A stretch of DNA of 64,000 nucleotides, taken from Firmicutes bacterium HGW-Firmicutes-14 (GTDB lineage: Bacteria > Bacillota > Thermincolia > Thermincolales > UBA2595). Positions 11,621-61,644 of the stretch are shown piece after piece (position 1 is the stretch's first letter; each line of letters opens with the position of its first letter). Made by a program: the position numbers and the translations under genes. The notes below the pieces were generated by a model, which had not been told where the DNA came from, searched no databases, and worked only from the letters and a program-made list of their open reading frames with translations. Location: assembly GCA_002840275.1 (NCBI GenBank), contig PHAB01000003.1, positions 186,001 to 250,000 of the forward strand, written 5' to 3'.

Positions 11621-12121
11621 ATGAAACAGATTCTTGTTGATATCAAGAAATGCCTTGCCTGCAAATCCTGTGAAATTGCATGTGCTGTTACCCACTCCGA
11701 ATCCAAAAGCCTCATAGGCGCTGTCCTGCAGGATAAGAAACCCAGGCAGAGGGTCTATGTGGAAGCAGGGGACGGCATTTCCTTCCCTCTCCAGTGCAGA
11801 CACTGTGAAGACCCCAGGTGTGTCTCAGCCTGTATGTCAGGTGCAATGTATACAGATGATCAGACAGGTCTTGTTGCCAATAATCCTGATAAATGTGTCG
11901 GCTGCTGGATGTGTGTAATGGTATGCCCGTTCGGCGCAATCACCCAGGATACCGAGCAGAAAATCGCCCAGAAGTGTGAACGCTGTGTTGACCTTGAAGA
12001 ACCTGCCTGTGTCATGGCATGTCCTACCAAGGCCATAAAGTTCTTGGATATAGATGTATTCAGCAAAGACGCAAGATTGCAATACCTCACCAATTTCCAT
12101 TTAAAAGAGGAGGGTAAATAA
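11621..12121 (+). CDS. cooF: CooF-like ferredoxin with four [4Fe-4S] clusters
   Basis: Electron-transfer protein expected to carry electrons from CO dehydrogenase. Four Cys motifs are visible in order: CLACKSCEIAC, CRHCEDPRCVSAC, CVGCWMCVMVC and CERCVDLEEPACVMAC. Length is 166 residues from the ATG at 11621, which has GAAGGAGGTG 6-15 bases upstream; an in-frame upstream start at 11597 lacks a ribosome site and is not used. The stop shares a base with the cooS start (TAATG), so translation is coupled. The family is the HycB/CooF ferredoxin group; physical linkage to cooS makes the CooF role likely. Confidence 0.92.
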   Translation: MKQILVDIKKCLACKSCEIACAVTHSESKSLIGAVLQDKKPRQRVYVEAGDGISFPLQCRHCEDPRCVSACMSGAMYTDDQTGLVANNPDKCVGCWMCVMVCPFGAITQDTEQKIAQKCERCVDLEEPACVMACPTKAIKFLDIDVFSKDARLQYLTNFHLKEEGK

Positions 12122-14028
12122 TGAAATGGGAAAATAAGTCCATTGACCCGGCGGTAAGAACTATGCTGGGTAAAGCTGACAAGGACGGTATAGATACTGT
12201 ATGGGACCGTTATGAAGCCCAGCAGCCCCAGTGCGGGTTTGGCCTGCTCGGTATCTGCTGCCGGAACTGTATTCAGGGACCGTGCAGGATTGATCCTTTT
12301 GGCAGCGGACCGCAGAAAGGCGTATGCGGGGCCGGGGCAGACCTTATCGTTGCCAGGAACCTCTTAAGGTCCCTGATGGGAGGGACCGCAGCCCATGCGG
12401 ACCATGCTTATGAAGCTGTTGAAGCCCTTTACATGGCCGCAGATGGACTGGCACCTTATGAGATAAAAGATGAAAACAAACTAAAATCAGTTGCTTCTAA
12501 ACTTGGAATCGATACTGAGGGCAAGGATAAAAACCGGCTGGCCAAAGAGGTCGCTGAAACAGCATTTGCGGATTTTGCCAATCATGGTTCCTCACCAATG
12601 AAATGGCTGACAGCTACGGCTCCCCAAGAGAGGGTAGAAACCTGGGGCAAACTCGGGGTCCTGCCCAAAAACCCGGACAGGGAAATCCGTACGGCGATGC
12701 ACCAGACAAGCATGGGTGTGGATTCAGACCCCGTTAATCTTATCCTGTCAGCTGTGAAACTTTCCCTGGCCGACGGATACGGCGGTCTTCATCTGGCTAC
12801 CGATATACAGGATATCCTTTTCGGCACGCCAACCCCGGTCGTTTCCGAAGCCAACCTGGGGGTGCTTAAGGCAGACCATGTAAATATCATTATCCACGGC
12901 CATGTTCCCCTTCTCTCAGAAAAAGTAGTTGAATGGGCCAGAAAACTTGAAGATGAAGCCAAATCTGCCGGTGCCAGCGGTATCCAGCTCTCCGGATTAT
13001 GCTGTACCGGAAACGAAATATTGATGAGACAGGGAGTTCCCCTGGCAAACAACTTCCTGGCCCAGGAACTGGCCATTACCACCGGTGCAGTGGATGCCAT
13101 GGTAGTGGATGTCCAGTGCATCATGCCCTCCCTGGCTGATACCGCTGCCTGTTACCATACTAAGATAATTACCACCATGCCAATTGCCAAGATGCCGGGA
13201 GCCGAACATGTGCCTTTTGAAATTGAAAAAGTGGATGAAACAGCCCAGCAGATAGTAAGAATGGCCATTGAAGCATATAAGAAAAGGGACCCCGGTAAAG
13301 TCAATATCCCGGACGAAAAGTCCTCTGTGATGGCCGGGTTCAGTGTGGAAGCAATAGTTGGCGCCCTTTCCAAGCTGGATGCATCCAATCCGCTGAAACC
13401 CCTGGTTGACAATATAGCAAACGGCAATGTCCTGGGGGCATGTGCAGTGGTTGGCTGCAACAATGCCAAGGTCACCCAAGATGCTTCCCATATCGGTCTG
13501 GTCAGGGAACTCCTGAAGAATAATGTCTTGGTCGTAGCCACCGGTTGTGCCGCCCATGCCCTTGGAAAAGCAGGTTTCCTCACCTCAGAAGCTGCGGAAA
13601 AATACGCCGGTGAAACCCTGAAGGCTGTCCTGACCGCCGTCGGTAATGCAGCAGGATTGAATGCACCCCTTCCGCCAGTCCTGCACATGGGCAGCTGTGT
13701 GGATAATTCCAGGATAGGAGACCTGGTGGCAGCTCTTGCCGGTTACCTGAAAGTTGCTGTCAAAGACCTGCCGATTGCGGCATCGGCACCCGAATACCAG
13801 CACGAAAAAGCTATTGCCATCGGCACCTGGGCTGTTTCCCTGGGCGTATTTACCCACCTTGGGGTTGTACCTCCGGTCCTCGGCAGCCAGCAGGTAACCA
13901 CTTTACTTACATCAGACCCTGTGGAATCTCTTTTGGGTGGAAAATTCTATGTGGAGACCGACCCCATAAAAGCTGCCGCGGGAATAATTGCCCATATTAA
14001 GTCCAAACGCGCCAAACTTGGCATTTAA
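12121..14028 (+). CDS. cooS: Ni-containing carbon monoxide dehydrogenase, catalytic subunit
   Basis: Interconverts CO + H2O and CO2 + 2H+ + 2e-. The 635-residue length is normal for monofunctional CooS. The N-terminal D/B cluster ligands are in CGFGLLGICCRNCIQGPC (residues about 38-55). C-cluster ligands and environment are visible: HGHVPL, LCCTGNE, DVQCIMPSL, VGCNNAK, ATGCAAHALG and MGSCVDNS, with the catalytic-lysine region QHEKAIAIG near the C-terminus. No acetyl-CoA synthase, CooC or hydrogenase genes lie in the window. With CooF and the downstream FAD oxidoreductase the expected route is CO to ferredoxin to NAD(P). Confidence 0.96.
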   Translation: MKWENKSIDPAVRTMLGKADKDGIDTVWDRYEAQQPQCGFGLLGICCRNCIQGPCRIDPFGSGPQKGVCGAGADLIVARNLLRSLMGGTAAHADHAYEAVEALYMAADGLAPYEIKDENKLKSVASKLGIDTEGKDKNRLAKEVAETAFADFANHGSSPMKWLTATAPQERVETWGKLGVLPKNPDREIRTAMHQTSMGVDSDPVNLILSAVKLSLADGYGGLHLATDIQDILFGTPTPVVSEANLGVLKADHVNIIIHGHVPLLSEKVVEWARKLEDEAKSAGASGIQLSGLCCTGNEILMRQGVPLANNFLAQELAITTGAVDAMVVDVQCIMPSLADTAACYHTKIITTMPIAKMPGAEHVPFEIEKVDETAQQIVRMAIEAYKKRDPGKVNIPDEKSSVMAGFSVEAIVGALSKLDASNPLKPLVDNIANGNVLGACAVVGCNNAKVTQDASHIGLVRELLKNNVLVVATGCAAHALGKAGFLTSEAAEKYAGETLKAVLTAVGNAAGLNAPLPPVLHMGSCVDNSRIGDLVAALAGYLKVAVKDLPIAASAPEYQHEKAIAIGTWAVSLGVFTHLGVVPPVLGSQQVTTLLTSDPVESLLGGKFYVETDPIKAAAGIIAHIKSKRAKLGI

Positions 14029-42807: not shown

Positions 42808-44067
42808 TTGCGCAGCTACAGGGATATTGACACATGGAAAGACGTGGAACCTGACCAATGGAATGACTGGCACTGGCAGGTGGCCAACCGTATCACCGGC
42901 ACAGTGCAGCTGAAAAGAGTCGTAAACCTCACACCCGAAGAAGAAAGCGGTATAAATAACTGCCTGGAGACCCTAAGAATGGCAATAACCCCATATTATG
43001 CCCTGTTAATGGATCCGGACAATCCGGAATGCCCTGTCCGCAAACAGGCCATTCCTGTTACCTGGGAACTGGATGAAAGCCCCTGTGACCTGGAAGACCC
43101 GCTCCTGGAAGATACCGATTCACCTGTGCCGGGGCTTACCCACCGCTATCCTGACAGGGTTTTGTTCCTGATTACAGACCAGTGTTCCATGTATTGCCGT
43201 CACTGTACCAGGCGGCGCCTGGCAGGCACCACTGACAAGTCTATGCCGGGAGATATCATCGAAAATGCCCTGGAATATATCAAAAACACGGCTGGTATAA
43301 GGGATGTGCTTATTTCCGGCGGAGACAGCCTCCTTACAGAAAACGACAGGCTTGAGTACCTGCTGACAAGACTGCATAATATTCCCCATGTGGAAATAAT
43401 CAGGTTTGGGACAAGGACCCCGGTTGTATTGCCGCAAAGGATAACCGATGATTTGTGCAGTCTCTTGCGCCGGTTCCATCCGATCTATGTAAATACCCAT
43501 TTCAACCACCCGCAGGAAATCACCCCGGAAGCCGAACGAGCCTGTGCTATGCTTGCAGATGCAGGAATTCCCCTGGGCAACCAGACAGTCCTGTTAAAAG
43601 GGATTAATGACTGTCCGTACATCATCAGGAAACTGGTCCATATGCTCCTAAAAATAAGGGTCCGCCCTTATTACCTTTACCAGTGCGACCTTTCGGAAGG
43701 GTTGGAACACCTGCGCACATCGGTGGCCAAAGGCATAGAAATAATTGAATTTCTTCGGGGTCATACCTCCGGGCTGGCAGTACCCACATATGTCGTGGAT
43801 GCTCCCGGGGGCGGGGGTAAAATTCCCGTATCACCCCAGTACCTTATTTCCATGTCAGATGAAAAAGTAATCCTGAGAAATTATGAAGGGGTTATCAGTG
43901 CATATACTGAACCCGCCGACAGGTCCGGCAAATGCCTGGAATGCGGTTTATGTGAAGATCAGCCGGTCTTCAGGACCGGCCTGCAAAAACTGTTTTCCAA
44001 CAGGAAGGTCAGCCTGGTACCCAAGGGGAACATCAGGGAACAGAGGAGAGAAAACTACATTCAATAG
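42808..44067 (+). CDS. ablA: Lysine 2,3-aminomutase
   Basis: Radical SAM, PLP-dependent enzyme making (S)-beta-lysine from L-lysine. A 419-residue protein with the FeS motif CSMYCRHC (CX3CX2C), ISGGDSLL (SAM binding) and the PLP lysine in DAPGGGGKIP. A C-terminal CLECGLC motif adds extra cysteines. TTG at 42808 follows GCAGGGAGG. With the acetyltransferase gene 14 bases downstream it makes the N-epsilon-acetyl-beta-lysine osmolyte pair, which favours osmoprotection over lysine fermentation. Confidence 0.93.
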   Translation: MRSYRDIDTWKDVEPDQWNDWHWQVANRITGTVQLKRVVNLTPEEESGINNCLETLRMAITPYYALLMDPDNPECPVRKQAIPVTWELDESPCDLEDPLLEDTDSPVPGLTHRYPDRVLFLITDQCSMYCRHCTRRRLAGTTDKSMPGDIIENALEYIKNTAGIRDVLISGGDSLLTENDRLEYLLTRLHNIPHVEIIRFGTRTPVVLPQRITDDLCSLLRRFHPIYVNTHFNHPQEITPEAERACAMLADAGIPLGNQTVLLKGINDCPYIIRKLVHMLLKIRVRPYYLYQCDLSEGLEHLRTSVAKGIEIIEFLRGHTSGLAVPTYVVDAPGGGGKIPVSPQYLISMSDEKVILRNYEGVISAYTEPADRSGKCLECGLCEDQPVFRTGLQKLFSNRKVSLVPKGNIREQRRENYIQ

Positions 44068-54932: not shown

Positions 54933-54980
54933 AAAAAATAACACTTATAGTGTAATATTACACTATAAGTGTTATTTTTT
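54930..54980 (+). promoter_or_regulatory. Promoter covered by a perfect 48-bp palindrome (operator)
   Basis: Bases 54933-54980 are a perfect inverted repeat with no central loop. Each half contains its own ACACTnnnAGTGT repeat (54941-54953 and 54960-54972). A promoter overlaps: -35 TTGAAA (54930-54935), 17-nt spacer, -10 TAATAT (54953-54958), on the symmetry centre. The next gene is a DNA-binding regulator, so self-control of the operon is likely. A hairpin in the 5' RNA is also possible. Confidence 0.75.
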
Positions 54981-54995
54981 ACTGGAGTTGGTGTT

Positions 54996-55448
54996 ATGGA
55001 CCGGGAAAACCTGATTAAATTAATAAGTGAAAAAATGAAACTTGTCCGGACAGAGGCTGATTTTACCCAGGACCATATGGCAGAAATCCTTGGCATTTCA
55101 AAGAAAACCCTGGTACAGATTGAAAAACAGCGGATCACTGCCAATTGGACCACTGTCGCAGCCTTTTGTTCTTTATTCCGGGACAGCCAGTTACTCCAGT
55201 CGGTCTTAGGAGGTGACCCGCTGGAAGTGGTATCAATTGTGGCCTTTGAACACTACGAAGGTCCCTTGGAAAAAACCATGGGCGGGAAGGTGTGGTGGCG
55301 CGAAATTAAAAACAAAGGGCGTTTCCGCCTGCAGCAAAACCTGATAAGCAAACACTACCGTATCTTGGATGAATTTGACCGGCGCTGGTCAAGTTCCTTT
55401 GATGAAGACTATATAAATAAAAGGCTCCGGGAATTAAGCAGTGATTAA
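54996..55448 (+). CDS. XRE-type transcriptional regulator
   Basis: A 150-residue protein. Residues about 10-65 form a helix-turn-helix of the XRE type: DFTQDHMAEILGISKKTLVQIEKQR. The C-terminal ~80 residues (GPLEKTMGGKVWWREIKNKG...) are not recognised and may be the sensor. ATG at 54996 is chosen because CTGGAGTTGG lies upstream; an in-frame GTG at 54969 is inside the palindrome. It lies at the head of the operon that runs to 61644 and probably binds the palindrome. Confidence 0.85.
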   Translation: MDRENLIKLISEKMKLVRTEADFTQDHMAEILGISKKTLVQIEKQRITANWTTVAAFCSLFRDSQLLQSVLGGDPLEVVSIVAFEHYEGPLEKTMGGKVWWREIKNKGRFRLQQNLISKHYRILDEFDRRWSSSFDEDYINKRLRELSSD

Positions 55449-55467
55449 AAGAGGGAGGCAAAAAACA

Positions 55468-55731
55468 GTGGATGAAAATATTAAAAAGTGGCAGGGGTTT
55501 GCCCTGGGAGTCTCGCCAACCCTGGTGATTTTGGGATTATCCGTCGGGACACCGCCGGGCGCTGTATGGGCATTTTTCGGGACTCTGATTTACCTGGTGG
55601 CCGGAAGTATTGCCGCTGCGGTCATCCACAGGAAGACCGCGGAAGAAACCACGGGTTCCAACCCGGTCATTATCGGTATATTCACAGGAATATTTGCTTC
55701 AGCTATTTTGACAGTGGTACTCTGCTTTTAA
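55468..55731 (+). CDS. Small membrane protein of the regulator operon
   Basis: An 87-residue protein with a short charged N-terminus and three hydrophobic segments (about 10-30, 32-52 and 65-86). No family recognised. GTG at 55468 is preferred to GTG at 55441 because AGAGGGAGG falls between them. It starts 20 bases after the regulator stop. DNA after the stop repeats part of the gene end (GTACTCTGCTTTTAACAGCAGTACTTTGCTTTTAA), a small direct repeat. Confidence 0.65.
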   Translation: MDENIKKWQGFALGVSPTLVILGLSVGTPPGAVWAFFGTLIYLVAGSIAAAVIHRKTAEETTGSNPVIIGIFTGIFASAILTVVLCF

Positions 55732-55768
55732 CAGCAGTACTTTGCTTTTAATTTGGAGGGATTAGGCT

Positions 55769-57223
55769 ATGGAACCGGCGCAGCATAGAACCGATAAGGA
55801 ATATATCTTTCATGAATTGACCCGGAGCGTCTGCCCGTCATGCCTGAAGCTGATAGACGCCAAAATAGTAATTACCAGGGACAACAGGGTAAAAATGCTG
55901 AAAAGATGCCCTGAACACGGGAGTTTCGAGGTCTTATTATCCTCTGACGCGGGTCACTACTGTGACACCCTTACATATAACAAACCGGGAAGCATCCCCT
56001 TTCATTTAAGTACTTCTGTATCTAAGGGCTGTCCCCATGACTGCGGGATATGCCCTGATCATGAACAGCATACCTGCCTGGCCCTGATGGAAATAACCGG
56101 CAGGTGTAACATGAAATGCCCCATCTGTTATGCTGACAGCGGTGCTGACAGCGGTTCTGTCAGCGGTGCTGACAGCGGGACAGGGAAGGACATCTCCCTC
56201 GAACAGGCCCAAAAAATGCTGGACAGTTATACTAAAGCCGAGGGGAAACCTGAAGTACTGCAGATAAGCGGGGGGGAGCCGACTCTCCACCCTCAGCTTC
56301 ATGAAATCCTGGATATGTACAGGAACAGCGGTTTGAAGGCTTTTCTTATCAATACCAACGGGGTCAGGATATCAAGGGAAGAAGCATTCGTAAAAAGCCT
56401 GGCCGGGTACGGGTCTGAACTGGAAATATACCTGCAGTTTGACAGCCTGAGCAGAGACGTAGGTTTAAAACTCAGGGGGCAGGATGTCAGCGAGCTTAGA
56501 ATACAGGCCCTGGACAACCTGGAAAAACACGGAATCCTGGCAAACTTAGTTGTTACCCTGGTAAAAGGGATAAATGAACATGAAATTGGACCTGTTATCA
56601 ATGAGGCAGTAAAAAGGCCGAACGTTACGGGGATAGTTTTCCAGCTGATTACAGGGGTCGGCCGGGCGGTCAGCTTCAGACAGGACATGTCCGACAGGCT
56701 GACTGTCCCTGATGTCCTTGGCCGGATAGAACACCAGACAGCAGGGATGTTTCGCCGGGATGATTTTATTCCACTTCCTTGCCCCCACCCCTCATGCTGT
56801 TCCCTTACATACGCATTTGTTACAGGAGACAAAAAGAAAACTGTAAAACCGGTGACACGGTATATAGATGTGCGAAAATACCTGGATTATTTTAAAAACA
56901 CTATCTGTATCGATGCCAGGGATATTCTTAATGAAGCATTATATCATTCTGTGGACAGGTTGTGGTCAGCCTCGGCAAGTCTCAGGCTAACCGAGGTATT
57001 GAAGGATTTCAGCCGCTGCTGTGGAATCAAATTCAAGGCAACCGGTGAAAGTGACCCCTTGAAACAGATACCCGGCAAACCTCTCCGTATTTTAATCAAA
57101 CCCTTTATGGATGCCTACAATTATGATTTGAAGAGAGCCAAAAAATGCTGTATTCATGTCCTGACAGGGGATGGCCGCCTGGTGCCTTTCTGTAATTACA
57201 ACATTTTTCACCGGGGAGGATGA
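55769..57223 (+). CDS. Tes/MJ0619-type radical SAM protein
   Basis: A 484-residue radical SAM protein. N-terminal zinc-type motif CPSC...CPEHG, then an extra cluster motif GCPHDCGICPDHEQHTC (about residues 87-103), then the radical SAM site RCNMKCPICY (about 110-119) and ISGGEPTLHP. This order is that of the MJ0619/tetraether-synthase-like family, members of which act on pterins or join lipid chains. A tandem 12-bp repeat just after the radical SAM site gives ADSG-ADSG-SVSG-ADSG. ATG at 55769 has TTGGAGGG upstream. The stop is 4 bases before the Lgt-like start. Substrate unknown. Confidence 0.85.
   Translation: MEPAQHRTDKEYIFHELTRSVCPSCLKLIDAKIVITRDNRVKMLKRCPEHGSFEVLLSSDAGHYCDTLTYNKPGSIPFHLSTSVSKGCPHDCGICPDHEQHTCLALMEITGRCNMKCPICYADSGADSGSVSGADSGTGKDISLEQAQKMLDSYTKAEGKPEVLQISGGEPTLHPQLHEILDMYRNSGLKAFLINTNGVRISREEAFVKSLAGYGSELEIYLQFDSLSRDVGLKLRGQDVSELRIQALDNLEKHGILANLVVTLVKGINEHEIGPVINEAVKRPNVTGIVFQLITGVGRAVSFRQDMSDRLTVPDVLGRIEHQTAGMFRRDDFIPLPCPHPSCCSLTYAFVTGDKKKTVKPVTRYIDVRKYLDYFKNTICIDARDILNEALYHSVDRLWSASASLRLTEVLKDFSRCCGIKFKATGESDPLKQIPGKPLRILIKPFMDAYNYDLKRAKKCCIHVLTGDGRLVPFCNYNIFHRGG
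56132..56179 (+). repeat. Four 12-bp tandem repeats in the radical SAM gene
   Basis: Unit GCTGACAGCGGT, four copies (the third is TCTGTCAGCGGT, the fourth ends in G). In frame, encoding a four-residue unit repeated four times directly after the CX3CX2C motif. Confidence 0.85.
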
Positions 57224-57227
57224 ACCG

Positions 57228-57962
57228 ATGTACCCGGTATTATTTCACCTGGGCAGCCTGGAGATTAACTCATATGCCTTTTTCAACGCCCTGGCCCTGC
57301 TGACAGGTGCCGGTATATATTTGCGCCTGACTTACTCCCGGGGTACCCCGGAAAATACAATGTTTTTACTGGCCGGGGCCCTTTCGGGCGGGTTTATCGG
57401 TGCTAAAACCATTGATTTAATACTCAATTTTAAACTGGTATCAGCAAACCTTTTTCCCTATCTCAGCCAGGGGATAGGTTCCAGGACTATACTGGGAGGT
57501 CTGATCGGCGGATGGATTGGGGTTGAAGCGGCCAAAAAGATAAGAGGCATCAGGGAAAAAACAGGGGACCCTTTTGCTTTGTCAGCCCCGGCAGCCATGG
57601 GTATCGGACGGATTGGCTGCCTGCTGGGCGGATGCTGTTTCGGCAAACCTACCGGTGAATGGTACGGGATTTATATGGCAGGTCAATACAGGTATCCGAC
57701 ACAGCTGATCGAAATAGTATTTGACTTCAGTCTTTTCCTCCTGCTTTGGGTTATCCGTAATAAAATGAAGTATCCCGGTGACCTATTCAAGCTTTTCATC
57801 CTGGGCTATTCAGTTTTTCGTTTCCTGATAGAGTTTATAAGAGCCGAACCTGTTGTCTGGCTGGGGTTAACGGTTTACCAGCTGATTGCCGTCCCCCTGA
57901 TTTTAATTACCGGTATTTACTTTTTCAGAAAAGGGGATTTGTATGGATTTAACCGCCGGTAA
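57228..57962 (+). CDS. Divergent Lgt (prolipoprotein diacylglyceryl transferase) paralogue
   Basis: A 244-residue membrane protein with about seven hydrophobic segments. The fold is Lgt: GSRTILGGLIGG aligns with the Lgt HGGLIG region, GRIGCLLGGCCFGKPT with GR(I/L)GNFINGE, and RYPTQLIE and FLIEFIRAEP with later motifs. The catalytic His is replaced by Leu and the Asn of GRIGN by Cys, and two more Cys follow. Normal lipoprotein lipidation is therefore doubtful. ATG at 57228 follows GGGGAGGA; it overlaps the next gene by 20 bases. Confidence 0.82.
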   Translation: MYPVLFHLGSLEINSYAFFNALALLTGAGIYLRLTYSRGTPENTMFLLAGALSGGFIGAKTIDLILNFKLVSANLFPYLSQGIGSRTILGGLIGGWIGVEAAKKIRGIREKTGDPFALSAPAAMGIGRIGCLLGGCCFGKPTGEWYGIYMAGQYRYPTQLIEIVFDFSLFLLLWVIRNKMKYPGDLFKLFILGYSVFRFLIEFIRAEPVVWLGLTVYQLIAVPLILITGIYFFRKGDLYGFNRR

Positions 57963-58824
57963 CCGGTTATTGTTTTTATTTGGATTTCCGGTAATTATCA
58001 TACTTATGCTGTATATAAGCGCCCTGATAGGATTTAAGTGGCAGGGGGCCTGGGTGCGTTCCCCGGTATATTCGATGGTCAGCAGGTCGCCCCGGCCGCT
58101 GAGGCTGGCCGCTGCCGGCGCCGCCGGGGCAGTAACCCCTTTTTGTTCATGTACGACTGTTCCCGCATTTGCCGCTATTATTGAATCTGAACTTGGTCTT
58201 GATACTGCTATGGCTTTTTTAATCGCCTCACCCTTAATTGATCCTGCCGGGATAATCCTTTTGGTCCTCATGTTTGGTATAAAACTGACAGCCGTTTATG
58301 TTGCCGGATGTTTTGCCGCTGCGGTGTCCGGCGGCTGGATTTTGGGCAGGGTTTTTTCAGTACGGGATATCAATCCGGCGCTTTTGTTTGGCTGTATTGA
58401 GGATTCCGGAAATATAACATGGCGGCAGTCATCATCCCACGCCTGGTCGTATATCAGTAAATTCTGGTGGGTAGTGGTATTAAGTACTCTGATTGGTTTT
58501 CTGATTTATGATTATGTACCGTCCGGGCTGGTAGCATCTTATTCGTCCTTCGGAACAAATGCCGCTGTTCCCGCTGCAGCTGTCACCGGCGTGTTTGTGT
58601 ATGCCCATTTTGCCGTACTGGTACCTGTGGGAACCGCCCTTTTAACAAAGGGTATTGCCCCTGGGATTGTCCTGGCTTTTTTGGCTTCCTCGGCAGGCAT
58701 AAGCCCCCCGGAAATTGTTCTGTTATCAAAGCTGCTCAGCTTCCGCCTGACAGTATCCTATATAGCTGTCACGCTGACCCTCATTTCACTGATGGGTCTT
58801 ATCGCCAACATGATAGGAACGTGA
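57943..58824 (+). CDS. UPF0718-family permease (ArsP/YraQ-like)
   Basis: A 293-residue membrane protein with about eight to ten hydrophobic segments. The hallmark TPFCSCTTVPAFAAI near residue 65 and IASPLIDPAGIILL belong to the UPF0718 permease family, which includes ArsP, an exporter of trivalent organoarsenicals that uses the CSC cysteines. Export of an arsenic, sulfur or selenium compound is plausible but unproven. ATG at 57943 lies inside the Lgt-like gene; the stop overlaps the next start (GTGA). Confidence 0.85.
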   Translation: MDLTAGNRLLFLFGFPVIIILMLYISALIGFKWQGAWVRSPVYSMVSRSPRPLRLAAAGAAGAVTPFCSCTTVPAFAAIIESELGLDTAMAFLIASPLIDPAGIILLVLMFGIKLTAVYVAGCFAAAVSGGWILGRVFSVRDINPALLFGCIEDSGNITWRQSSSHAWSYISKFWWVVVLSTLIGFLIYDYVPSGLVASYSSFGTNAAVPAAAVTGVFVYAHFAVLVPVGTALLTKGIAPGIVLAFLASSAGISPPEIVLLSKLLSFRLTVSYIAVTLTLISLMGLIANMIGT

Positions 58825-59360
58825 ATAACATGTTTTTTAAGAAAAAAGAGCCGGAACCCAAGGCCCTGCTGCTATATACAAACATCCAGGATGTCATATA
58901 CAGCCACTCAGTTCTGCTGAAAGAGGGATTAGGGGTCAGCCTTGTCCCACCACCCGCCGGTATAGCGGCAGGATGCGATCTGGCTGTCCAGTTTAACCCG
59001 GCCGAAGCTGAAACAGCAAAAAGCCTGATGCACAGCGGCCATATCCTTCCCGGGCAGCTGCATTATGTGGCCTGTTCCATTGACCCTGTGGAAAACGTGG
59101 CCATGATAATTGAAATTGAACCAGGTTACCTGATGGCCAAATGTAACAATATCAAGGTAACCATTGATCAGGCAAACGGTGAAATAGTTAATATTTCCGG
59201 GGGAGGTTGCCCTGATATTCCCTATGTCGCCCAGACGGTCACCGGGAAAACCCTTTGGGACTGCCCGGAGCCGGTCGAAATCGGTTCTACCCTGTGTACA
59301 TACATGGTGCAGCTGGCCATCGATACCCTGAGACAGGAGGTGGGAAGATGCTGGCTGTAA
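58821..59360 (+). CDS. DUF3343 protein with an extra C-terminal domain
   Basis: A 179-residue soluble protein. Residues about 12-75 fit DUF3343, a putative Se/S carrier-like domain: ALLLYTNIQDVIYSHSVLL, then SLVPPPAGIAAGCDLAVQF with the family Cys. Residues about 80-179 (VACSIDP, LMAKCNNI, GGGCPDIPY, LWDCPEP, GSTLCTYM) form a second, cysteine-containing domain I do not recognise. GTG at 58821 overlaps the permease stop; ATG at 58830 is an alternative. The 3' end overlaps the kinase-like gene by 13 bases. Confidence 0.75.
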   Translation: MNNMFFKKKEPEPKALLLYTNIQDVIYSHSVLLKEGLGVSLVPPPAGIAAGCDLAVQFNPAEAETAKSLMHSGHILPGQLHYVACSIDPVENVAMIIEIEPGYLMAKCNNIKVTIDQANGEIVNISGGGCPDIPYVAQTVTGKTLWDCPEPVEIGSTLCTYMVQLAIDTLRQEVGRCWL

Positions 59361-60193
59361 TCGGGACTGTTCCCATGCCTGAGGGTATTTACGAGGGAGA
59401 AGCGAGTTTTGAAGGCAGTTCTATTAAATTAAACGGTGTCCTCCTGCCGGCCGGGATGGGAACCATGGCATCAGCCGCCGCAGCCCTGCGGGTTTTGCAG
59501 CATTTTGGCAGTGAAAGAGTTTATTGTCTGCTGGCCGGGGACCGCAGCGGCCAGGGGAGCAGTATGCTCCTGGAGAAAGCTGTCCATTACCTCCCCTGCA
59601 GCGGCAGTGACACAATAGTACTGCATTACATGTTTGTCCTGATCAAGTATGGGGAGGTCATTAGAAACACCCTGGACAAAATGAAATCAAAGCCTTACCT
59701 GATCGCAGATGCGGGTGGAATGTACCTGGCCAAAGCAGCCGGGATAGCCGGTGTTTTCGACCTGTTTACCCCTGATTCCGGGGAAATGGCCTTTCTGGCT
59801 GATCCCAAGGCCCTGCACCCGATGTATACCTCTCCCCGGTTTTTTTCTTTGCCAATCCCTGACCTGGCGGAATCAGCCCTGAAACACGGGAATGCGCCGG
59901 ATAACCTGCTGGTAAAAGGCAGGACCGACTTCATCTTTGCCGGGGGGAAACTGAACAAAACTGTCGGCAGCCCCGTAATAACGGCCATGGAAGTGATAGG
60001 GGGGACAGGGGATACCGTAACCGGGATTGTAGCCGCCCTGCAGCATCTTGGAATAAAAGACTTCAGCTATAAGGCAGCATTATTAAACAGGCTGACCGGA
60101 CAAAAAACCGGCTGCACTCCGCGGACCCGGATAGGAGAGTTTATCGGCAACCTTGACCCGGCCCTGTTGGAAAAGGCTGGTGTTGAAGTTTGA
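59348..60193 (+). CDS. Ribokinase/NAD(P)HX-dehydratase-fold protein
   Basis: A 281-residue protein. The C-terminal GGTGDTVTGIVAAL near residue 217 is the anion-hole and catalytic-Asp motif of the ribokinase-like superfamily, nearest in look to the ADP/ATP-dependent NAD(P)HX dehydratase group. Its partner epimerase domain is absent. YLIADAGGMYLAKAAG and LFTPDSGEMAFLADP are other fold features. ATG at 59348 has GGAGGTGGGA upstream and overlaps the preceding gene. It may act on a small metabolite of the operon rather than on NADHX. Confidence 0.75.
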   Translation: MLAVIGTVPMPEGIYEGEASFEGSSIKLNGVLLPAGMGTMASAAAALRVLQHFGSERVYCLLAGDRSGQGSSMLLEKAVHYLPCSGSDTIVLHYMFVLIKYGEVIRNTLDKMKSKPYLIADAGGMYLAKAAGIAGVFDLFTPDSGEMAFLADPKALHPMYTSPRFFSLPIPDLAESALKHGNAPDNLLVKGRTDFIFAGGKLNKTVGSPVITAMEVIGGTGDTVTGIVAALQHLGIKDFSYKAALLNRLTGQKTGCTPRTRIGEFIGNLDPALLEKAGVEV

Positions 60194-61644
60194 TATATTT
60201 TATATATCCGTTATTGTTAGCTTTCTTCCTCTTTGTGCTTTATATGGTGCCAGAAAACTTTATCTCAGGTATCCTGGCAAATCCGGTCATTACTTTCGGT
60301 TTTGTTATAACAGGCGCTTTTCTAAGTGCAGCATTGAGCAAAAGAAACAGGATTATTATCCCCAATTACCCGTTCACAGCAGTTCAGGGGCTGTTGGGCG
60401 GAATCCTGATGGGGTATGGTTCAGGCATGGCATTACTCCCCCAAATGGGAAACACCCTGTCAATGATACACGGTGTTTTCTACTGGCTGAGCCGGTTAAT
60501 GCCCCAGGGGTTTATTTACCTGGCAGGAATGCTGGCAGGTGGATATGCGGCCCTGGCACTGCAAAAACGTTGTTTTTCGAAAGTCCGGCTGAAACCCCTT
60601 TCTCCGGCAACGATGGGTCTTGCAGCCAGTATTGCTAAGGTATTATTCATTTTGCTTCTGTTTTCCCTGGTGTTTATTAGTTATCAGCTGTTTATGTCCT
60701 CCGGCATCGAAAACGGCCTGCTGGGAACCGGCCTGGCCCTGATGTCCGGTTTTTTGCTGGAGCGCAACAGGATGTGTATGGGACTGATGATGAAAGAAAC
60801 CTTCTATACCGGGTCCCGGGGAACACTGGTGAAAGCTGCGGCAATAACCGTATTGCTGGGAATCTCATGGCAAATCCCCTGGCGAATCCCCGGGGTGGAG
60901 CAGTTCTCCCTAAATTTGCCGACTCCGAATTCCGCAGTGTTAACCACGTTTTTCGTAACGTTTTGCGGGTCGTTGTTAATGGGTTTCGGTTACATAATGT
61001 CTGACGGCTGTTTTATGGGAAGTCTGTGGAAAGCAGGGCAGGGGATCCTGACAAGTCTCATATCCGTGTTCGGAATATTTATCGGGGCGGCAATATCAAT
61101 TATATTACCTGATCTGGAATCAGCCTTTCCCGGTTGGCAGGATATAATTCTTAAAACCGGTCTGTTGGTCCTGCTGTTAATATGGACTGGGGCTTATTTA
61201 ATGGAACCACCCAATAAAACCGTCAAACGTGGTTCGTTGTTTAAGTGGCTTTTTTCCGAGGCCACTATACTGTTAACCTTATTCGTAATATTTGCGGGTC
61301 CAAAGAGTTCTTTCCCGTTAACACTGCAGGGATTAGGGGCATTTTTGTACTTATCAGGCATAATCCTTTACGTGTTATCCAGAATATACCTGGGGAAAAA
61401 CTGGGGTGAAGCAATCGTCATCAGGGAAGGCCATAAAATAGTCACTGAAGGACCATACCGCATTTTTAATCACCCAATATATATCTCAATGGTTATAATG
61501 CTTGTTGGAATCAGTTTTCTCAATAACAGCCTGTGGGGAACTGTTGGGTCTGTTGGTTTTGTAATGCCGTTTCTGGTTTTGAGGGCCAGGGAAGAACAGC
61601 GTATCCTTAAAGAGGTACCGGAAGAAAATGACTTATCCTCATAA
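60190..61644 (+). CDS. YeeE/YedE-type transporter fused to an ICMT-like methyltransferase domain
   Basis: A 484-residue membrane protein. Residues about 1-340 are a YeeE/YedE-type (thiosulfate or selenium-related) transporter. The second half keeps the Cys motifs ERNRMCMGLMMKE and SDGCFMGSLWKAGQG; the first half has lost the equivalent Cys (GYGSGMALLPQMGN). Residues about 370-480 are an isoprenylcysteine-methyltransferase-like domain with VTEGPYRIFNHPIYIS near 417 and RAREEQRIL, the SAM-binding PEMT/ICMT pattern, also found in methanethiol methyltransferases. TTG at 60190 overlaps the preceding stop by 4 bases. Confidence 0.82.
   Translation: MIYFIYPLLLAFFLFVLYMVPENFISGILANPVITFGFVITGAFLSAALSKRNRIIIPNYPFTAVQGLLGGILMGYGSGMALLPQMGNTLSMIHGVFYWLSRLMPQGFIYLAGMLAGGYAALALQKRCFSKVRLKPLSPATMGLAASIAKVLFILLLFSLVFISYQLFMSSGIENGLLGTGLALMSGFLLERNRMCMGLMMKETFYTGSRGTLVKAAAITVLLGISWQIPWRIPGVEQFSLNLPTPNSAVLTTFFVTFCGSLLMGFGYIMSDGCFMGSLWKAGQGILTSLISVFGIFIGAAISIILPDLESAFPGWQDIILKTGLLVLLLIWTGAYLMEPPNKTVKRGSLFKWLFSEATILLTLFVIFAGPKSSFPLTLQGLGAFLYLSGIILYVLSRIYLGKNWGEAIVIREGHKIVTEGPYRIFNHPIYISMVIMLVGISFLNNSLWGTVGSVGFVMPFLVLRAREEQRILKEVPEENDLSS

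Follow-up and report, generated by a model that had tools for sequence, protein, structure and literature searches.

The present analysis concerns an operon of eight genes, here called A to H, located at positions 54933-61644 of a 64,000-nucleotide stretch of contig PHAB01000003.1 (assembly GCA_002840275.1) from Firmicutes bacterium HGW-Firmicutes-14; the whole of this stretch is referred to as the window. Three of its genes, encoding a small membrane protein (B), a radical S-adenosylmethionine (SAM) enzyme (C) and a paralogue of the transferase Lgt (D), form a widespread cassette that no searched family library names, and the genes F, G and the N-terminal part of H represent a rearranged member, with a divergent transporter, of the selenium-linked YedE-DUF3343-ribokinase-like cassette. 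The operon is read here, tentatively and with somewhat less than an even chance, as a composite of B-C-D and of F, G and the YeeE part of H, placed under one dedicated switch of the XRE family and working by the mechanism set out below. The joining of B-C-D to a selenium/sulfur uptake cassette suggests that lipid may be attached to a membrane protein, or altered on it, in an unrecognised manner.

To follow the distribution of the B-C-D cassette, an alignment of C was run against 84,980 named species genomes, and the loci of 80 close relatives were taken from the matches. Of the 56 C loci that possess D, 53 have it immediately 5' of C in the same orientation, the two genes usually overlapping or nearly so (gap of at most 50 bases in 45), and a small membrane protein accompanies the pair in 51 of the 56. 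The hosts comprise Bacteroidota, Paenibacillaceae and other Bacilli, Cyanobacteria, Melainabacteria and Spirochaetia, with variants in the Anaerolineae and Planctomycetales, and the cassette also occurs in the Chloroflexota. An independent search starting from D yielded matches in 32 of 201 Paenibacillaceae genomes; C adjoins D in each of the 30 loci retrieved from this family, and the small protein is present in all 20 of the larger loci examined, downstream in 13 of them. No homologue of SelD, YedE, F or E occurs in the flanks of the 80 C-type loci of the species scan, and the C-D-B arrangement recurs in aerobes, e.g., Flavobacteria and Paenibacillus, without selenium or sulfur genes alongside, which makes a core function in the modification of lipids or membrane proteins more likely than one in chalcogen transport. 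A full-text literature search, with subscription papers outside its reach, retrieved no publication in which Lgt and this radical SAM family are brought together.

The small proteins of the module are membrane proteins of about 54-149 residues, and the representatives scanned belong to no Pfam or NCBIfam family above cut-off. A cysteine at the outer end of the last helix is found in 63 of the 67 proteins, versus 6 of 36 control membrane open reading frames (ORFs) from the same loci, several of which are unrecognised tandem copies of the module protein; on a looser count, with a cysteine anywhere in the last 25 residues, 15 of the 36 control ORFs are positive, tandem module proteins included. 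This residue stands a few positions from the C-terminus, as in ISLGIC-GALISGF, FLLNAAC-FGLL and GFSVC-S, and in 63/67 proteins the segment preceding the last helix has a higher net charge than the one following it (positive-inside), a bias which predicts an outward-facing tail cysteine. A variant occurs in the Paenibacillaceae (7 of the 20 larger loci, six of them from one genus-level group, or all seven closely alike in sequence), where the small protein is encoded upstream of D and displays a Cys/His-rich, zinc-finger-like N-terminus followed by a single helix ending in AICGGM or similar. Such proteins, with a single tail helix ending in AICG, are encoded upstream of D in loci L214, L218-L223 and L051; one zinc-finger-type protein that was scanned gave no NCBIfam match. 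A variable N-terminal part associated with a constant tail is the pattern expected of a recognition tag. In the window, B (55468-55731, + strand; 87 amino acids, three helices, no Pfam or NCBIfam match) terminates in ILTVVLCF; the first in-frame GTG, at 55441, would give 96 amino acids, and the ribosome-binding site GGGAGG favours the GTG at 55468. B is assigned to the small proteins with a tail cysteine by its position, size, topology and cysteine, and not by similarity.

D (57228-57962, + strand, starting with the ATG at 57228) belongs to the LGT family of Pfam (118 bits) and stays below the cut-off of the Lgt family TIGR00544 (64.9 vs 118.9 bits). Two other proteins of the same genome pass this cut-off with 174 and 168 bits, for which reason D was rejected as the housekeeping Lgt; a separate Lgt above the cut-off occurs in each of the four genomes checked. 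The residues R143, R239 and His103 are essential in the Escherichia coli enzyme (PMC4728403). According to the alignment, the D family keeps R143 in 57/57 sequences, Y235 and R239 in 58/58 each, and G154 in every row with a letter there, and carries a cysteine at the position of N146.

C (55769-57223, + strand) most resembles two families of cluster-rich radical SAM enzymes, with 351 bits to TrsS (NF045646, cut-off 490; relatives of C score 317-368 bits) and 309 bits to Tes (NF045702, cut-off 450), and matches the MJ0619 structure 7tol with an E-value of 1.7e-74. It possesses all the ligands of a rubredoxin-like site, an N-terminal auxiliary cluster, a CX3CX2C radical SAM cluster and a C-terminal cluster; the alignment columns of the first three are conserved across the C family, and the C-terminal cysteines 343, 460 and 475, common to MJ0619, are kept in the window protein and in nearly all relatives from Chloroflexota and Acidobacteriota. 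In a maximum-likelihood tree the window C occupies the base of the D-linked clade (support 98/94), apart from a clade of TrsS-like proteins and MJ0619 (100/100), its long branch making the exact position less sure than these values imply. A true TrsS, that of locus L053, scores 668 bits and is accompanied by DVU_1551, 1553, 1555 and 1556 genes; none of these families was detected in the window operon by Pfam and NCBIfam scans. On account of the scores below cut-off, the different clade and the missing partner genes, C was rejected as either TrsS or Tes. Tes acts on lipid tails, and MJ0619 forms its C-C bond by way of an intermediate with a bond between the substrate carbon and a sulfur of one of its clusters (PMC9433317). 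The coupling of lipid tails through C(sp3)-C(sp3) bonds, the reaction of Tes, is for C a candidate activity.

The same tree contains a separate group from Chloroflexota and Acidobacteriota, in which the C gene is mostly followed by a methyltransferase gene (the one scanned being related to DVU_1556). One member, in genome G299 (L050:7403-10602), lies in an apparent operon comprising selD with an in-frame TGA, the C-like radical SAM gene, a DVU_1556-like methyltransferase gene and a NapH-like gene; with selD directly before the radical SAM gene, it provides an independent selenium link for a relative of C. In loci L081, L085, L090, L111 and L133, from Acidobacteria and one gammaproteobacterial bin, the C-like gene and its methyltransferase adjoin, by assignment by eye, genes for a protein resembling disulfide oxidoreductases dependent on flavin adenine dinucleotide and for an MFS transporter.

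The second half of the operon is of a different nature. F (58821-59360, + strand) consists of an N-terminal DUF3343 domain (Pfam Se_S_carrier, PF11823) and a C-terminal domain (residues 100-170) with the motifs SGGGCPD and TLCA, which corresponds to no Pfam family; C52, C130 (in SGGGCPD) and C159 are invariant in an alignment of 12 sequences. Its AlphaFold model, with a predicted local distance difference test score (pLDDT) of 81, gives only weak ferredoxin-like matches in the PDB, none of them at E<=0.001. G (59348-60193, + strand) exhibits a GGTGDT motif invariant in an alignment of 13, and its model (pLDDT 93) finds kinases of the ribokinase superfamily as top PDB matches (Foldseek, E 1e-6). 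H (60190-61644, + strand) is a fusion of a YeeE/YedE-like transporter (about residues 1-340) with an ICMT/PEMT domain (about residues 372-475), recognised by Pfam with 47 bits for Sulf_transp, 42 for ICMT and 43 for PEMT. It falls below the cut-offs of seleno_YedE TIGR04112 (39.5 vs 200 bits) and of NF040696 (60.5 vs 160 bits); the YedE of locus L060, by comparison, attains 497.5 bits to TIGR04112, a family of putative selenium transporters.

Among the 398 genomes of the phylum that were searched, the full-length H fusion occurs in one, that of the window, and G is present in 17 others, where F adjoins it in 17/17 loci. The larger G loci contain YedE upstream in 11/12 and TusA nearby or downstream in 12/12, and SelD adjoins G in locus L064. 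SelD scores above cut-off in all 18 G-positive genomes versus 26 of 35 other sampled genomes (one-sided hypergeometric probability about 0.016, computed by hand), an association which, taken alone, lends weak support; the window genome itself encodes two SelD proteins above cut-off, the better-scoring one with an in-frame TGA. The tie of DUF3343 and YeeE to selenium, named in the earlier note, is thereby supported. The cassette, with its DUF3343 and YedE selenium genes, had been partly described previously (PMC5322559). In the window it adopts the order F-G-YeeE, the transporter part being placed 3' of G, divergent and fused to ICMT, and the operon includes no TusA-like gene.

E (57943-58824, + strand) is a permease of the UPF0718/ArsP_1 type (106 bits to ArsP_1) with a TPFCSC motif, and remains below the cut-off of SaoE NF040736 (57 vs 325 bits). 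The family is common (145/398 phylum genomes), and the homologues of E have none of the other operon genes alongside in 29/29 other loci checked. Several near homologues carry a TGA, for selenocysteine, at the first cysteine of the CSC in TPFCSC, which fits a chalcogen, metal or metalloid substrate for E; those of loci L227, L228, L230, L236 and L239 are probable selenoproteins. With respect to the methyltransferase domain of H, its sequence places it in the ICMT fold family, and a CaaX cysteine or a small thiol is a candidate substrate. In genomes G308 and G408, from two genera of another order, the gene order is C-ICMT-DUF4395-D-small protein with a tail cysteine. The linkage of ICMT to C and D thus comes in two forms, a stand-alone gene in these genera and a domain at the C-terminal end of H in the window. 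An ICMT beside a tail cysteine recalls, by analogy only, the processing of CaaX proteins.

A separate ICMT gene also occurs in the window genome, roughly 24-36 kb downstream of the operon (L057:3037-14831, about 271-283 kb of G000:C39), in a cluster that resembles a fatty-acid synthase, with a dehydratase-like gene, two ketosynthases, two short-chain reductases and a carrier protein, as well as two tandem Tes/TrsS-like radical SAM genes and a cysteine desulfurase-like gene. This cluster is possibly an unusual lipid pathway.

These selenium links bear on the proposal of the earlier note, namely a single metabolic operon for the uptake, carriage, methylation and export of a chalcogen or metalloid species, a task to which C and D would have been adapted. 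It draws support from the linkage of F-G-YedE with SelD, from the selD-radical SAM-methyltransferase operon of G299, from selenocysteine in the CSC motif of the near homologues of E and from ICMT beside C and D in G308 and G408. However, half of the operon is the known YedE-type cassette, the flanks of the 80 C-type loci lack SelD, YedE, F and E, and B-C-D is conserved in aerobes with no selenium or sulfur genes alongside it. As a single pathway the proposal is considered unlikely, even if its selenium component holds; 'lipid-links' was the best guess of that note.

The organization of the operon is as the earlier note had described it. All eight ORFs lie on the + strand, their families being confirmed by Pfam (the fold of G by AlphaFold, B having no match), and five of the seven junctions, C-D, D-E, E-F, F-G and G-H, overlap or lie within 5 bases (+4, -20, -4, -13 and -4 bases, respectively), with A-B at +19 (or -8) and B-C at +37. 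The first gene, A (54996-55448, + strand), encodes a helix-turn-helix regulator of the XRE family (150 amino acids), with weak Pfam matches to HTH_31/HTH_19 (E 3e-5). Just 5' of A, a perfect 48-bp palindrome without assigned strand (54933-54980) is made of two 24-nucleotide arms, 100% complementary and without spacer, which contain two ACACTTATAGTGT boxes in an operator-like arrangement; position 54933 is thus the first base of the palindrome and not a gene start. A whole-genome search found the ACACTTATAGTGT box nowhere else in the 3.65-Mb genome, and the only matches of the half-site ACACTWATAGTGT are the two copies in the palindrome. Judged by its sequence, the palindrome is the probable operator of A, and an operon-specific regulator with its own operator would be the simplest reading. 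An anti-phage defence role was rejected, since PADLOC gave no system match for the operon, only generic helix-turn-helix and weak viperin-type radical SAM matches. Elsewhere in the window are found a lysine 2,3-aminomutase-type radical SAM gene (42808-44067) and a gene of the prismane/CO dehydrogenase family (12121-14028).

Taken as a whole, the operon is no conserved unit. No second complete operon was found in the genomes searched, the H fusion being present in no other of the 398 genomes and E being unlinked in the 29 other loci; the absence of conserved linkage, which would refute the earlier note, is therefore not seen for B-C-D and for F-G, and is seen for E and for the whole set. In this respect, a chance fusion has to be considered, in which B-C-D, YedE-F-G, a permease and a methyltransferase would share one promoter and no joint product. 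Each half exists complete elsewhere without the other, E stands without the other operon genes in every other locus checked, and neither C nor G was found in the other nine genomes of the order, eight of which belong to the family of the window organism. Five tightly coupled junctions and one operon-specific operator-like palindrome nevertheless argue against mere accident, as does the independent linkage of ICMT to C and D in another lineage, and such a fusion appears decidedly improbable.

For the composite operon, the directly observed features are gene content, linkage, residue conservation, topology bias and the unique operator-like box, and we infer the substrates, the order of the steps and one product for both cassettes. 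The last helix of B would run from the inside to the outside and end with a cysteine at the outer face, placed like that of a lipobox but at the C-terminus. D, with its Lgt fold and its catalytic arginines kept, would attach a glycerolipid to this cysteine, and C would perform radical chemistry on an aliphatic chain, either joining chains or inserting sulfur or selenium, before or after the transfer. F, G and the YeeE part of H would import and carry selenium or sulfur, E may export the product or an excess, and the ICMT domain may methylate a thiol, a selenol or the lipidated cysteine. B-C-D could accordingly represent a new kind of membrane post-translational modification, in which a transferase derived from Lgt and a radical SAM enzyme related to Tes lipidate an outward C-terminal cysteine (an uncleaved C-terminal lipobox) and alter its lipid, in many phyla, with an extension to selenium/sulfur and a terminal methyltransferase in the window organism; this more specific proposal is put forward as a rather doubtful one.

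Several observations weigh against these interpretations. No sequence similarity is detectable between B and the other small proteins of the module, and the charge pattern of B is neutral. Cysteines 343, 460 and 475 of C are replaced in the Bacteroidota rows of the alignment, and 460 and 475 in the Paenibacillus-type rows, so that the formation of C-C bonds as in Tes is not assured throughout the family. The joint working of both cassettes is represented by one operon in one genome. Finally, the position of His103 is occupied in D by an aliphatic residue (V, M, L or I) in 57/57 sequences. Because Tyr or Gln stands at this position in the genuine Lgts of the Bacillota genomes concerned, the replacement is not decisive and proves no change of chemistry, and a loss of activity is not claimed.

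The same replacement is one of the arguments for a different role of B-C-D, in membrane-lipid tailoring. C would join or modify lipid tails in the manner of Tes, D would move a glycerolipid to a non-protein acceptor, and B would serve as a scaffold or lipid presenter with a metal- or lipid-binding cysteine, no protein being lipidated. His103 belongs to HGGL, a motif for which binding of the lipobox peptide has been proposed (PMC4728403), C keeps the clusters of the Tes structure that it matches so closely, and bacterial Tes homologues have been proposed as makers of membrane-spanning lipids (PMC8941075). Against such a role, the cysteine is the most constant feature of the B-type proteins and is situated at the outer face, where Lgt acts, whereas their N-terminal parts are interchangeable; lipid tailoring without a protein target is regarded as unlikely.

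The interest of the lipidation reading resides in the fact that many bacterial radical SAM proteins of the Tes/MJ0619 type are now linked to one particular transferase and one particular target cysteine, in hosts amenable to culture and manipulation, which makes the question of the substrates of bacterial Tes-like enzymes directly testable. If true, it would add a C-terminal counterpart of the lipobox to the biology of bacterial lipoproteins, and the window operon would be a case in which this C-terminal lipobox is wired to a selenium/sulfur supply.

Among the known systems, that of TrsS (NF045646, with the DVU_1551/1553/1555/1556 families and an XdhC-related factor) is the closest to C by NCBIfam score and shares with it a cluster-rich architecture and a connection to selenium, but C belongs to another clade below the cut-off and the other genes of the TrsS cluster are not in the operon. 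The tetraether lipid synthase Tes/GDGT-MAS (MJ0619) has in common with C the rubredoxin-like site, the Cys3-His N-terminal cluster, the radical SAM cluster and the cysteine positions of the C-terminal cluster of the window protein; C differs by its score, its separate clade, its bacterial origin and its linkage to an Lgt paralogue and a small protein. Canonical Lgt and D share the LGT fold family and the residues R143, G154, Y235 and R239, D being distinguished by the aliphatic residue at His103, the cysteine at N146 and a score below the cut-off of TIGR00544, and occurring beside a separate Lgt above it in the four genomes checked. In the YedE/DUF3343/SirA-like selenium genes (PMC5322559; TIGR04112), F and G are always paired in the phylum matches, with YedE upstream and TusA downstream, whereas the divergent, ICMT-fused YeeE of the window follows G in an operon without a TusA-like gene. 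The DAG-RiPPs similarly combine an enzyme-modified peptide with a diacylglyceryl modification of cysteine, but with an N-terminal lipobox, MNIO enzymes and the general lipoprotein pathway (PMC12636315). In the MYXO-CTERM and JDVT-CTERM systems, an invariant cysteine beside a C-terminal membrane helix of the target is served by a dedicated enzyme; in JDVT-CTERM, the genes for sorting enzyme and target form a conserved two-gene neighbourhood and the cysteine is thought to be lipidated, with an Lgt-like transferase as the foremost candidate for the lipidating enzyme in these systems (PMC11980579). There, the cysteine precedes the helix and the tail is cytoplasmic; here, it comes after the helix and points outward, the B-C-D neighbourhoods include a radical SAM enzyme, and no CPBP protease was identified in them. 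By analogy, the enzyme-target pair of MYXO-CTERM/JDVT-CTERM may be taken as the closest working model for B-C-D.

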